Positions 14,106-48,549 of a DNA stretch of 57,157 nt are shown here, piece by piece. How positions within the stretch are numbered: the stretch's first letter is position 1; each line of letters starts with the position of its first letter. A program made the position numbers and the translations under genes. Origin of the DNA: Puniceicoccus vermicola (lineage in GTDB: Bacteria > Verrucomicrobiota > Verrucomicrobiia > Opitutales > Puniceicoccaceae). The notes under the pieces are model-generated. The model made no database searches. It saw only the letters and a program-made list of their open reading frames with translations, and had not been told where the DNA came from. The DNA lies in contig NZ_JACHVA010000141.1 in NCBI RefSeq assembly GCF_014230055.1, forward strand, positions 1 through 57,157, in the 5' to 3' direction.

Positions 14106-14867
14106 ATGAAACTTCACCTGAAAATCTGGAGACAAAAGAGCGCCAACGCCGCTGGCGGCTTCGAGAGCTACGAACTGCCCGATGTATCGGAAGGCTCTTC
14201 GTTCCTCGAAATGCTCGACATCCTTAATGAGCAGCTTGTTGACAAGGGCGAGCCCCCAGTAGCCTTCGACCACGATTGCCGCGAGGGGATCTGCGGAATG
14301 TGCTCCATGGTCATCAACGGCCAGCCGCACGGACCCGAAAAGGCCACTACCGCCTGCCAGCTGCACATGCGTCATTTCAAGGACGGCGACACCATCACCA
14401 TTGAGCCCTGGCGCGCCAAGGCCTTCCCTGTTCAAAAGGATCTGGTTGTCGATCGCACCGCCTTCGACGGTATCATCCAATCCGGCGGCTTCATTACCGC
14501 CCGCACTGGGAGTGCGCAGGACGCCAACCTCACGCCAATCGGCAAAGAGGTCGCCGACAAGGCCATGGACGCCGCCGCCTGCATCGGCTGTGGTGCCTGC
14601 GTCGCCGCCTGCCCGAACGGATCGGCAATGCTCTTCGCTGGAGCCAAGGTCACCCACCTCAACTCCCTCCCGCAAGGGAAGGCCGAGCGCGACCGCCGCG
14701 TCCTCGGCGTCGTTCACGCCATGGACGAAGCCGGTTTCGGAAACTGCACCAACTACGGCGAGTGCCAGGAAGCCTGCCCGAAGGAGATCAAGCTCGACGT
14801 CATCGCCAAGATGAATCGCGACTACGCCTTGGCCTCCGTCCGCAGCTTCTTCTCCAAAGCCGGATAA
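14106..14867 (+). CDS. sdhB: Succinate dehydrogenase iron-sulfur subunit
   Basis: 253 residues. [2Fe-2S] ligands C58, C63, C66 and C84 (CREGICGMC); [4Fe-4S] ligands C159, C162, C165 with C169 ([12 protein letters not shown]); [3Fe-4S] region C214, C220, C224 ([12 protein letters not shown]). It carries electrons from the SdhA flavin to the membrane haems. It is the last gene of sdhCAB, 20 bp after sdhA, and is followed by a strong terminator. Confidence 0.97.
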
Positions 14868-14931: not shown

Positions 14932-15043
14932 GGTAGCGCGGCTTGGCCCAAGCCGCACCCCAGTTCAAATCCACCAACCCATAACTATCCAACCAACCCA
15001 GCTCCCATCCCACGCAATGCTCGATGAGCCATCGAGCGCTACC
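14932..15043. repeat. REPIN-like element 1 (112 bp)
   Basis: Starts GGTAGCGC and ends GCGCTACC, a terminal inverted repeat. Just inside the left end lies GCGGCTTGG-C-CCAAGCCGC; inside the right end lies GCTCGATG-AGC-CATCGAGC. Each end therefore reads inwards as GTAG followed by a hairpin, the structure of a REP; the pair in opposite orientation with a spacer of about 60 bp is a REPIN. It starts 4 bp after the sdhCAB terminator. The copy at 15613-15724 has the same 112-bp length with only a few substitutions. Confidence 0.9.
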
Positions 15044-15051
15044 CATCCAAA

Positions 15052-15100
15052 GGTAGCGCGGCTTGGCCCAAGCCGCACCCCAGCTCGAATCCACCAACCA
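15052..15100. repeat. Solo left half of the REPIN-like element
   Basis: GGTAGCGC, the GCGGCTTGG/CCAAGCCGC hairpin and the following ACCCCAGCTCGAATCCACC match the left half of the 112-bp elements. The homology then stops, and the right half with its hairpin is missing. It lies 8 bp after element 1 and 58 bp before the short RAYT start, so it may be the REP that the transposase gene carries at its own 5' side. Confidence 0.8.
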
Positions 15101-15158
15101 AACCCTGGCAAAACTTTTCTCTTTGACCTCCAAGCTCCCCATATAGAGCATTTCCTCA

Positions 15159-15617
15159 ATGCCGGATTTCGAAAGAAAGCGTCTTTTCCACACTCCTCCG
15201 ACTTGGGTGCCCGACGATTCCGCTTTTTTCATCACGGTTTGCTGCGATCCTCCCAGAAAAAACCAACTGTGCCATTCCCGGATCGCTGAACAAATCCACG
15301 AATCCGTCGTCCATCGCCAGAGATCTCACATCTGGTTCGTCTCCCTCTTCCTGCTAATGCCAGATCACCTTCATACCATATTACGCTATGACCGTCGTCG
15401 GCAGCCTTTGGATATTCTGATCAAGAACTGGAAACGCTATCTCGCCCGATTTGCGAAAATCCAATGGCAAGATGGCTTCTTTGATCACCGAATCCGCACC
15501 CTTCAAGAATACCGAGAAAAGGATTCTTACATTCGCCAAAATCCAGTCCGAGCCAACCTCTGCAAACGCCCCGAAGACTGGCCCTACGTATGGGACCTGG
15601 AAAATCTAGACCGGTAG
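15159..15617 (+). CDS. REP-associated tyrosine transposase (short RAYT, Y1 family)
   Basis: 152 residues, IS200/IS605-like Y1 fold. Seen: FFITVCC strand, the HUH motif as H70-L71-H72 in LMPDHLH, WQDGFFDHRIR, and the presumed nucleophile Y124 in SYIRQNPVRANL. RAYTs are single-copy, domesticated relatives of IS200 transposases that cut and move REP/REPIN DNA. This gene is bracketed by such elements: a full and a half copy on its 5' side and a full copy on its 3' side. Its TAG stop lies inside the GGTAGCGC head of the downstream element. The motifs are intact, so it is probably functional. No strong Shine-Dalgarno is seen. Confidence 0.9.
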   Translation: MPDFERKRLFHTPPTWVPDDSAFFITVCCDPPRKNQLCHSRIAEQIHESVVHRQRSHIWFVSLFLLMPDHLHTILRYDRRRQPLDILIKNWKRYLARFAKIQWQDGFFDHRIRTLQEYREKDSYIRQNPVRANLCKRPEDWPYVWDLENLDR

Positions 15618-15724
15618 CGCGGCTTGGCCCAAGCCGCACCCCAGTTCGAATCCACCAACCCATAACTACCCAGCCAACCCAGCCCCTATCCAACGCAATG
15701 CTCGATGGGCCATCGAGCGCTACC
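15613..15724. repeat. REPIN-like element 2 (112 bp)
   Basis: Full copy with GGTAGCGC and GCGCTACC ends and both internal hairpins (GCGGCTTGG-C-CCAAGCCGC and GCTCGATG-GGC-CATCGAGC). Compared with element 1 the stems are unchanged while loop and spacer bases differ. The first five bases overlap the RAYT stop codon. It ends 65 bp before parA. Confidence 0.9.
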
Positions 15725-15789: not shown

Positions 15790-16584
15790 ATGGAAAGCCC
15801 TGTATTCGCGATTGCTAATCAAAAGGGGGGTGTCGGTAAAACGACGTCCGCCGTCAACCTTTCTGCCGGTCTGGCCGCGAACGGGATCGACACCCTTCTC
15901 ATCGACCTTGACCCGCAGGCCAACGCGACCAGCGGCCTGGGCCTGGAAAAAGAAGAAGGCACCAGCGCCTACGGCCCTCTTATGGGGGAAGGCACCCTCT
16001 CGGAGAAGATCGTCGAGTCTGGCCGGGAACATCTTTTCGCCATTCGCTCGGAACGTGACTTGGTCGCTACCGAGGTCGAGCTTCCGCGCGATGAGGATTA
16101 CCTCTTCCGCCTAAAGGGCCTGATCGACGCCGTCCGCGAGGAATACGGATTTGGGGCGATCATCCTCGACTGCCCTCCTTCTTCGACGGTCCTCTCCCTC
16201 AACGCCCTCGCTGCAGCCGACTATCTCGTCGTCGCCTTGCAGTGCGAATATCTTGCGATGGAAGGTCTCGGCGAAATCCTCAGCATGCAAAAGCAGATCA
16301 AGGAAGGCGGGGTGAACAGCAACCTCGAGGTCGCTGGCATCCTCATGACGATGTTCGATATCCGCACCAACCTTTCCAATCAGGTCGTCTCCGAGGTGCG
16401 TTCCCACTTCGGCGATCAAGTATTCTCCTCGGTCATCCCCCGCAACATTCGCCTCACGGAGGCTCCTAGTTTCGGGCAAACGATTTTTGAGTATGAAAAG
16501 TCCAGCTCCGGGGCTCTGGCCTACGAAAAACTGGCCCAAGAGTTCATCTCCCGCTTCGGTCTGAAACCGTCCAAGGGCGAATGA
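15790..16584 (+). CDS. parA: ParA/Soj-family ATPase
   Basis: 264 residues. Deviant Walker A K12-GGVGKTT, followed by LLIDLDPQANATSGLG and IILDCPPSS, typical of chromosomal ParA/Soj. These ATPases bind DNA non-specifically and move ParB-parS complexes during chromosome segregation. No parB follows; instead the stop overlaps the rnc start by 4 bp. ParB could be elsewhere, or this could be an orphan ParA-like positioning ATPase. A REPIN lies between the preceding RAYT and this gene. Confidence 0.93.
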   Translation: MESPVFAIANQKGGVGKTTSAVNLSAGLAANGIDTLLIDLDPQANATSGLGLEKEEGTSAYGPLMGEGTLSEKIVESGREHLFAIRSERDLVATEVELPRDEDYLFRLKGLIDAVREEYGFGAIILDCPPSSTVLSLNALAAADYLVVALQCEYLAMEGLGEILSMQKQIKEGGVNSNLEVAGILMTMFDIRTNLSNQVVSEVRSHFGDQVFSSVIPRNIRLTEAPSFGQTIFEYEKSSSGALAYEKLAQEFISRFGLKPSKGE

Positions 16585-26829: not shown

Positions 26830-27789
26830 ATGCGCAGAAAAAGATTAAAAATCCAAAAAAAAACCTCATACTACCACCTCATGAGCCGTACCGTTAATGG
26901 AGAGGACATGTTTGGAAATCGGGAGAGGGAGATTTTGAGGAAAATGATCTGGCAGGTTTCTGAGTTTTCTGGGGTCAGGATCATCACTTATGCGGTCATG
27001 AAGAACCACTTTCACCTACTGGTCGAGGTTCCCTCCGATGTGCGGGTTTCGGATGATGAGATTGTTCGCCGCTACCGTCGGCTCTACCCCGCTCCAACTC
27101 CTTGGCAGCCCATGCGAGCAGAGATTTTGGAGGAACATCTTCATCAAAACACCCTGGAAGGGATCGCTCTGCGAAAGGCCCTTACAGGGAGGATGCATGA
27201 CATTTCCTGGCTGATGAAAACTCTCAAACAGCGTTTTTCCCTCTGGTTTAATAAGTCCCGGGATCGTTTTGGTCCGGTGTGGTCAGAGCGATTTAAGAGT
27301 GTTCTCGTTGAAGGCGATCGGTGGGCACTGAAAACTGTAGCTGCCTATATCGATCTCAACGCCGTACGGGCGGGTCTCGTTGAGGATCCGAAAGACTATC
27401 GATTTTGCGGCTATGGGGAAGCGGTTGGAGGCGGGAGATTGGCTCGCTCCGGGCTTTCTCTGGTCGATAAGGATCTGGCTGGTTATCGCCAAACCCTCTA
27501 TGGGGCCGGATCTGGTGAAAAATCGGAAAAGCATTCAATCACCCGAGAAGAAGCCGTCCGCGTGCTGACCAAAGAAAAGGGGAAATTGCCTCTCTCCGTC
27601 GTTCTGCGATGCCGCGTTCGCTACTTTACCGATGGGAAAATCCTCGGCTCTCCCGAGTTTGTTGAGGCGAGGAGCCAATCCGATCCTGAGGGGAACAAGG
27701 TCTTGCCTCGAAGACCCTACCCAATGAAGGGAGCCGACTGGGGAAATCTCTCTGTCGGAAATGGCTTAAGAAAAAAGCTATTCAGCTAA
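26830..27789 (+). CDS. Transposase IS200-like / RAYT, long form, copy 1
   Basis: 319 residues. N-terminal Y1 transposase domain with HUH motif H60-F61-H62 in MKNHFHLLVE, a conserved MKTLKQRFSLWFN helix, GPVWSERFKS, and presumed nucleophile Y174 in AAYIDLNAVRAGLV. The C-terminal third (about 200-319) is an extension lacking in the short RAYT; I recognise no named domain in it. The gene at 47590 encodes a paralogue of the same length with very high similarity. All motifs are intact. It lies between glgB and the 3' end of cinA and has no REPIN of the 112-bp type beside it; the preceding ACCTGGT dyad may be its recognition or control element (inference). Confidence 0.88.
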   Translation: MRRKRLKIQKKTSYYHLMSRTVNGEDMFGNREREILRKMIWQVSEFSGVRIITYAVMKNHFHLLVEVPSDVRVSDDEIVRRYRRLYPAPTPWQPMRAEILEEHLHQNTLEGIALRKALTGRMHDISWLMKTLKQRFSLWFNKSRDRFGPVWSERFKSVLVEGDRWALKTVAAYIDLNAVRAGLVEDPKDYRFCGYGEAVGGGRLARSGLSLVDKDLAGYRQTLYGAGSGEKSEKHSITREEAVRVLTKEKGKLPLSVVLRCRVRYFTDGKILGSPEFVEARSQSDPEGNKVLPRRPYPMKGADWGNLSVGNGLRKKLFS

Positions 27790-47589: not shown

Positions 47590-48549
47590 ATGAAGCCGAT
47601 ACGCCTAAAATCGGAAAAACAAACTTCCTACTACCACTTGATGAGTCGTACGGTAAATGGGGAGGCCTTGTTTGGGTCGAGAGAAAGGGAAATCCTTCGA
47701 AAGATGATTTGGCAAGTGGCTGAATTTTCGGGGATCCGGGTGATTACTTATGCGGTGATGAAAAATCATTTTCATCTCTTGGTGGAGGCGCCCCCTAAAT
47801 CTACTGAAATTTCGGATAAGGAGTTGGTTCGGCGGTTTCGCGTGCTCTACCCTGAGCCGACTCCCTGGCAGCCGATGCGGGCAGAGGTATTGGAGTGGCA
47901 TTTACAGAATCAGACTCCAGAAAGTGAGGCTTTGCGGCTTTCGCTCACCCATCGGATGCACGATATCTCCCTGCTTATGAAGACGTTAAAACAGCGATTC
48001 ACCCGATGGTTCAATCAATCGCGGGATCGTTTTGGCCCTCTTTGGTCGGAGCGTTTTAAGAGTGTATTGGTCGAGGGAAATCACTGGGCCTTGCGCACGG
48101 TTGCGGCCTATATCGACCTTAACGCAGTTCGATCGGGATTGGTCGAGGATCCGAAGGATTATCGTTTCTGTGGATATGCGGAGGCTCTGGGAGGGAGCAA
48201 ACTGGCACGTAGAGGGTTGGCGCTTGTCGATCCGGATTTGGCGGGATATCGACAGACCCTCTATGGAGCCGGGGCGGGACCCAAAGATGGGAAGATCTCG
48301 TTCAACCGCGAGGAAGCTCTGCGAGTCTTGAATGAAACGCGTGGGGAACTGCCGCTCGCAACCATATTACGATGCAGAATTCGTTATTTCAGCGATGGCG
48401 TTGTTCTGGGATCCAAGGAATTCGTCGAGGCTCAGATTCGTGCCCGAGGGAAGGAGAGAAAGCATCCCGCCGTTCCGAAAGCCATGAGAGGCGCTCAGTG
48501 GCGAGGTCTTTCGGTTGCGCAAGGACTTCACAAAAATCTTTTCCAGTAG
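47590..48549 (+). CDS. Transposase IS200-like / RAYT, long form, copy 2
   Basis: 319 residues, the same length as copy 1 at 26830 and collinear with it. HUH motif H60-F61-H62 in MKNHFHLLVE, MHDISLLMKTLKQRF, GPLWSERFKSVLVEG, and presumed nucleophile Y174 in AAYIDLNAVRSGLV are kept. The C-terminal extension is also shared (REEALRVLNETRGELPLATILRCRIRYFSDG). Differences are scattered, not clustered, which fits an old duplication or separate horizontal entries rather than a fresh insertion. The surrounding DNA is not repeated beyond the ACCTGGT-type dyad and TTGAC upstream. It lies 68 bp before the RND efflux operon. Confidence 0.88.
   Translation: MKPIRLKSEKQTSYYHLMSRTVNGEALFGSREREILRKMIWQVAEFSGIRVITYAVMKNHFHLLVEAPPKSTEISDKELVRRFRVLYPEPTPWQPMRAEVLEWHLQNQTPESEALRLSLTHRMHDISLLMKTLKQRFTRWFNQSRDRFGPLWSERFKSVLVEGNHWALRTVAAYIDLNAVRSGLVEDPKDYRFCGYAEALGGSKLARRGLALVDPDLAGYRQTLYGAGAGPKDGKISFNREEALRVLNETRGELPLATILRCRIRYFSDGVVLGSKEFVEAQIRARGKERKHPAVPKAMRGAQWRGLSVAQGLHKNLFQ

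Follow-up and report, generated by a model that had tools for sequence, protein, structure and literature searches.

A probable low-copy REPtron in Puniceicoccus vermicola, whose natural hairpin variants suggest what its transposase reads

The locus lying between two genes of Puniceicoccus vermicola that I take, from their translations, to be sdhB and a parA-like gene is very probably a REPtron, that is, a single-copy Y1/HUH transposase (RAYT/TnpAREP) amid hairpin repeats that are its presumed substrate. As a REPtron with short perfect palindromes it is an ordinary system of a known kind. What the comparison adds is a testable recognition rule: the natural variants of the hairpin suggest, from sequence comparison, that the foot and the apex with its loop are read by the enzyme, the middle of the stem being free.

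The window, i.e. the whole stretch of 57,157 nucleotides that was analysed, is contig C141 of a genome of 5.2 Mb (143 contigs, 96% complete). Between the end of sdhB at position 14867 and the start of the parA-like gene at 15790 come, in this order, REPIN copy 1, 8 bp, a left half-element, the transposase gene and REPIN copy 2 (Table 1). The first-pass annotation had delimited two 112-bp copies with inverted ends exactly as in the table, and both were recovered there, 94% identical over their entire length and bounded by the termini GGTAGCGC/GCGCTACC; as is expected of a REPIN, the 112-bp unit consists in both copies of two inverted REPs separated by a short spacer. The short Y1 transposase with HUH and Tyr motifs that it had placed between the elements is likewise present (152 aa, with the motifs MPDHLH and YIRQNP). 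Two features go beyond that annotation, namely the left half-element and the position of the stop codon, whose TAG (15615-15617) is the TAG inside the GTAG opening REPIN copy 2.

Table 1. Features of the locus, in positions of the window
Feature	Position	Strand	Description
REPIN copy 1, 112 bp	14932..15043	+	left REP GGTAGCGC[GGCT]TGGCCCA[AGCC]GC, spacer, right REP inverted [TCGA]
REP hairpin L, copy 1	14933..14956	+	mid-stem tag GGCT
REP hairpin R, copy 1	15019..15042	-	mid-stem tag TCGA, loop GCT
Left half-element, 48 bp, upstream of transposase	15052..15099	+	96% identity with copy 1 positions 1-48
REP hairpin L, half-element	15053..15076	+	tag GGCT
Predicted RAYT/TnpAREP gene, 152 aa	15159..15617	+	HUH residues 70-72; catalytic Tyr124 by alignment
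REPIN copy 2, 112 bp	15613..15724	+	94% identity with copy 1; overlaps RAYT stop codon
REP hairpin L, copy 2	15614..15637	+	tag GGCT
REP hairpin R, copy 2	15700..15723	-	tag TCGA, loop GCC

Read inwards, each REPIN end comprises GTAG, one unpaired C, a perfect 8-bp stem and a 3-nt loop, and the earlier description of GTAG followed by a perfect hairpin stands with that single C in between. The left hairpin is GCGGCTTG-GCC-CAAGCCGC and the right one GCTCGATG-GCY-CATCGAGC (stem-loop-stem in both cases); the left hairpin of the first reading was real, but its stem took in one base of the loop. Both window REPINs fold, as DNA, into two local hairpins, with z = -4.84 for copy 1 (0 of 200 shuffles equally stable) and z = -2.98 for copy 2 (4 of 200). 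The family consensus is G-GTAG-C-GC-N4-TG-GCY-CA-N4'-GC-A; among the hairpins of the genome itself, foot, apex and loop are fixed, and the middle four pairs vary yet remain paired. Since all 23 exact hairpins of this genome have a G before and an A after the pattern, a C and an A stand opposed and unpaired at the foot.

Although Pfam Y1_Tnp matches the 152-aa protein weakly (E 0.017), the NCBIfam model REP_Tyr_transpos (NF047646) does so at E 5.7e-22 with 78.2 bits, just below its cut-off of 80 bits, which is a curated threshold and no defining trait. In an alignment of the window protein with 54 chosen relatives (alignment A2), all 55 sequences match the NCBIfam RAYT model at E <= 1e-3; H70, H72 and Y124 are invariant in 7 of 7 sequences and at least 90% conserved across the 55. 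Among solved structures, the only distinct sequence matched by phmmer was that of E. coli TnpAREP (4er8, E 3e-8). The available part of PMC6006769 assigns GTAG contacts to W94, Q95, E100, H101 and R104 of the E. coli protein; in the phmmer alignment W94, Q95, H101 and R104 are retained and E100 is replaced by D, the counterparts in the window protein being W103, Q104, D109, H110 and R113. An AlphaFold2 model built from the 55-sequence alignment (pLDDT 90.1) has 4er8 as its best structural match (Z 15.6 over 138 residues, rmsd 2.6, identity 20-23%), followed by IS608 (Z 10.9) and ISDra2 (Z 10.2), and Foldseek agrees on 4er8 (E 1.1e-7). The predicted fold, the family profile and the active-site and GTAG-contact residues support the assignment of the window protein to RAYT/TnpAREP. 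A search of phage records gave no match to the protein, and plasmid records held only distant RAYTs (9 records, all below 60% identity).

A scan of a genome collection gave 378 confirmed relatives, the best 80 of which were kept as named loci, 54 of them entering alignment A2; 78 of these 80 belong to Verrucomicrobiota, Kiritimatiellota or Lentisphaerota, the other two (L109 and L118) carrying no phylum label. Together with the window and five order-level relatives they make up 86 loci, in whose counts near-duplicates (L045 = L100, L046 = L119, L072 and L073) are kept, and so are L138 and L145, where a chance hairpin entered the pair comparison. GTAG hairpins, 286 in all, lie within 900 bp of the RAYT gene at 76 of the 86 loci, and the remaining 10 loci have no GTAG hairpin of the searched form within that distance. 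With any of eight other tetramers at the head (CTAC, CATC and six permutations of GTAG), the search gave 0-4 hairpins each. Coming on top of fold, profile and active-site and GTAG-contact residues, the 76 loci support the first-pass reading of a RAYT with cognate inverted GTAG hairpins. At L109, the RAYT gene stands amid 14 same-strand hairpins in the 900 bp on either side, mostly at ~85-bp spacing.

Hairpins occur in both orientations at 62 of the 86 loci. For each of these, the most frequent hairpin in one orientation within 900 bp was compared with the most frequent in the other. The two differ at 44 loci and have identical 5' arms at 18. Differences fall on stem positions 3-7 in 107 of 310 cells, versus 13 of 248 at positions 1, 2, 8 and 9 (Fisher P about 1e-18 for the mid-stem excess, a guide only since the loci are related), and at a differing position both hairpins are paired in 109 of 120 cells. 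Among 13 distinct subfamily hairpins, all of the 104 cells are paired and 24 double changes occur; the search pattern had fixed the two foot and the two apex pairs but not the pairing of the middle. The covariation score is 0.622, as opposed to 0.126 for shuffled sets (0 of 500) and 0.011-0.131 for slid controls, and the first loop base is G in 13 of 13.

Hairpin characters were also mapped on a RAYT tree of 87 rows and 141 columns, itself poorly resolved (47 of 83 inner branches open), in which the RAYTs of G035 (same order) and Coraliomargarita sp. SDUM461004 (L045 and L100) do not differ in any tree column. With L045, L046 and L073 dropped, 84 rows remained, 73 of them labelled with the commonest hairpin on either strand, and changes were compared with 500 shuffles. 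The first two loop bases required 13 changes versus 27.6 in the shuffles (minimum 21), stem position 8 required 18 versus 33.4 (minimum 27), position 9 17 versus 26.1 (minimum 17) and position 7 27 versus 37.5 (minimum 30). Positions 3, 4, 5 and 6, with 17, 21, 25 and 21 changes versus 19.4, 23.0, 25.7 and 23.8, lie inside the shuffled range, and positions 1 and 2 (7 and 2 changes versus 7.9 and 2.0) are uninformative because they are nearly invariant. Taken as one word, positions 4-7 required 50 changes versus 59.0 (minimum 54), a weak tracking of the tree that speaks against a wholly free middle and probably owes something to position 7 and to close relatives. By these change counts, the evolution of apex and loop follows that of the enzyme; that of the middle follows it weakly or not at all.

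The RAYT gene ends precisely on the TAG of a GTAG at 12 of the 86 loci (e.g. window 15614-15617, L072, L073, L074, L102 and L105). Among the genes that read into a hairpin, 12 of 16 stop at GTAG where frame alone would give one third (P 0.0008), or 11 of 15 without one near-duplicate (P 0.0018), the loci being related. PMC3733652 mentions REPs that overlap RAYT genes at their 3' end.

In single-stranded DNA each REPIN end would take the form of a GTAG followed by a short hairpin. The RAYT would bind GTAG, the foot of the stem and the apex and loop, nick close to the bound hairpin with Tyr124, and move or copy the 112-bp REPIN, on rare occasions also the gene, to other sites. From the hairpin variants I infer that the middle four base pairs go unread by the protein. 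The full rule, that the RAYT of this clade reads only GTAG, a two-pair foot and the apex and loop, the mid-stem being an unread, replaceable tag that needs pairing alone, with many REPINs unlike-tagged, is put forward tentatively, its chances being somewhat short of even. If it is true, the hairpin may be regarded as a modular address in single-stranded DNA: foot, apex and loop would set enzyme specificity, and the middle would mark the end and the lineage and change fast. The dozens of related loci serve here as a natural mutagenesis set for RAYT recognition.

A rather unlikely alternative is that the unlike tags were themselves selected, each end folding alone and a single long hairpin or cruciform being avoided. 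It would account for the unlike hairpins at 44 of the 62 loci that have both orientations and for the local folding of the window REPINs, and the like-ended units fold as a long hairpin in 5 of 5 cases and locally in 0 of 5. Against it, only 23 of 43 unlike-ended units fold as local hairpins, 20 of 43 still folding best as one long hairpin, the nearest relatives L072 and L073 included, and arms are identical at 18 of 62 loci; protection against long-hairpin formation is thus borne out only partly. In the available text of PMC3733652, REP heterodimers and alternative complementary stem residues across GTAG families have 'no obvious explanation', and the suggestion is made there, close to the present alternative, that unlike partners escape the clearance of large hairpins.

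Turning to the host genome, a search with the 112-bp element gave 12 matches, of which only the two window copies are full-length; as both lie at the RAYT, there is no direct sign of REPIN transposition elsewhere. The pattern GTAGCGC-N4-TGG-NN-CA-N4-GC has 23 exact occurrences versus 0 for the reversed control, and in 23 of 23 the middle four bases are complementary between the arms, a pairing that the pattern did not demand. Their tags are GGGT (15), GGCT (4), TCGA (2), GGTT (1) and GCCA (1); the 15 hairpins tagged GGGT may be owed to another or a lost RAYT. Tandem arrays are among them, three hairpins at 233-bp spacing on C82 and five on C130. The former (L005-L007, G000:C82:58850-59347) is made of three tandem 233-bp units, each with one GGGT-tagged hairpin plus flanking DNA, and is a REP-anchored tandem duplication. 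Two further inverted pairs, tagged GCCA/GGGT, lie on C83 and C127; in the C127 pair the GCCA hairpin has an altered foot. When two mismatches were allowed, 55 matches versus 53 for the reversed control were obtained, i.e. chance level; inspection by eye placed about 8 of the 32 additional matches in the hairpin family, as complete or almost complete palindromes. A test for cover of the dispersed hairpins by open reading frames found spurious frames even over those copies in the window that are intergenic.

The expectation of tens to hundreds of copies is upheld weakly, with 2 full REPINs and 23 exact hairpins that lie partly in local tandem arrays, and in place of the single RAYT expected the genome has several RAYT-like genes. 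A second REP family (pattern GTAGNGAGAGCNTCCNGCTCTC) has 192 exact hairpins versus 0 for its reversed control, lies on other contigs (e.g. C16, C92, C80 and C23), partly in dense arrays, and adjoins two of the RAYT-like genes (L014 and L018). Given 2 full copies and 23 hairpins versus 192 in that other family, the window REPtron counts as low-copy, and it is one of several in its genome. The window also contains two 319-aa Y1_Tnp genes (26830-27789 and 47590-48549; Pfam E about 1e-12), with no bracketing inverted repeat pair within the 1.5 kb examined. The genome has more than 30 open frames, about 300-340 aa long, that match the RAYT profile weakly, and this longer Y1 family is therefore abundant.

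Among the best 80 relatives, the nearest are L072 and L073 (BACL24/Opitutales MAGs, 56% identity). They have the same anatomy as the window, with REPINs on both sides and the downstream one supplying the stop codon, and their hairpins (left GGTAGCGC-[TGCG]-TGGCYCA-GC; right tag -[GCTT]-) keep the foot, apex and loop of the window hairpin with other middle tags. The exact hairpin pattern occurs 16 times in the L072 genome (control 0), 13 times in that of L073 (control 1) and once in G001 (control 0), so that 3 of the 10 genomes searched are positive; it was found in none of the other seven, which include G002 (same genus) and G003 (same family). Read by eye, the sdhB-parA junctions of G002 and G003 have neither RAYT nor REPIN, and the G002 spacer offers no clean empty site; G002 has three RAYT-like matches, all on other contigs, and G003 none. 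In G001 the sdhB sequence is not beside parA, hence this genome lies outside the junction comparison. Across 52 genomes to order level, 18 have any RAYT match and only 6, this one included, have one with E below 1e-30. The distribution of the gene is patchy, and in this it differs from the RAYTs for which the available part of PMC8049555 describes vertical inheritance.

It is quite improbable that the locus is an autonomous insertion sequence of IS200/IS605 type (15052-15724) with an adjacent 112-bp MITE derivative, in which the whole unit jumps, gene included. The left half, the gene and the right end do have the layout of an IS bounded by hairpins, and the locus is missing at the same junction in G002 and G003. 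However, a multi-copy gene transposing as a unit would be expected of IS200/IS605, and the genome has one high-identity copy of the window RAYT, the next RAYT-like matches reaching at most 39% identity; the termini are inverted GTAG hairpins, as in REPINs, and the modelled fold has TnpAREP as a closer match than IS608 or ISDra2. This reading was dropped on the single-copy gene and the fold. A reading of the hairpins as plain transcription terminators or regulatory palindromes, to which the transposase is incidental, is hardly credible and was dropped too. The first REPIN does follow directly on an apparent sdhB terminator, and the hairpins of the window are situated between genes; the GTAG head, however, is strict (286 hairpins versus 0-4 for each of eight other tetramers at the 86 loci), hairpins surround 62 of 86 RAYT genes in both orientations, and loop and apex track the RAYT tree.

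As regards known systems, the REPtron of the window has in common with E. coli TnpAREP (4er8, group 2) the fold, the HUH and Tyr residues, the GTAG-contact residues and the GTAG head, and past the aligned part the window protein has 9 residues versus about 30 in E. coli TnpAREP. Opitutus terrae, a verrucomicrobium, can be set beside it as well. GTAG REPs (GTAG-17, -19 and -20) are found there too (PMC3733652); the GTAG-17 and -19 dimers of O. terrae, with a spacing of 1-2 bp, differ from the unit of the window. The same text gives homodimers, heterodimers, complementary stem alternatives and REPs overlapping the transposase gene as general for GTAG families, and literature searches on RAYTs of Verrucomicrobia, compensatory stems and Opitutus REPs added little to it.

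Other comparisons draw on the available portions of PMC3116915 and PMC8266576. The GI REPIN of Pseudomonas fluorescens SBW25 is, as here, an inverted REP doublet near a RAYT, yet it is symmetrical and predicted to form a single long hairpin, whereas the window unit has unlike ends and two hairpins (PMC3116915). In the Marinomonas REPtrons Ma and Mb the REPs are concentrated near the RAYT gene, likewise here, but stem length and loop differ from the window hairpin (PMC8266576). E. coli REPs are longer, bulged palindromes in contrast to the short perfect ones described here, and compared with E. coli TnpAREP the window protein has a longer N-terminus and a shorter C-terminus, as do group 3 RAYTs (PMC8266576). 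The recognition of short perfect palindromes by group 3 RAYTs was studied there with two enzymes; the hairpin trait of that group (short perfect stem, short loop, G first) is present in the window hairpins, a likeness at the level of the hairpin.

Within the same source (PMC8266576), the REPtron Sm of Stenotrophomonas maltophilia shares with the window the GTAG head, a perfect 8-bp palindrome and hairpins around a Y1 gene; its loop is GCT and that of the window GCC or GCT, both of 3 nt with G first. Unlike Sm, the window hairpin has an unpaired C between GTAG and stem, facing an unpaired A. For the Sm REP, the loop G is reported as critical, changes in the central and upper stem as moderate in effect, changes at three bottom positions as improving cleavage, and mismatches near the middle as affecting or almost eliminating it. 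As to the loop and the requirement for pairing, Sm agrees with the window comparison; it differs from what the comparison predicts here, namely bottom pairs that are conserved and a centre that is free.
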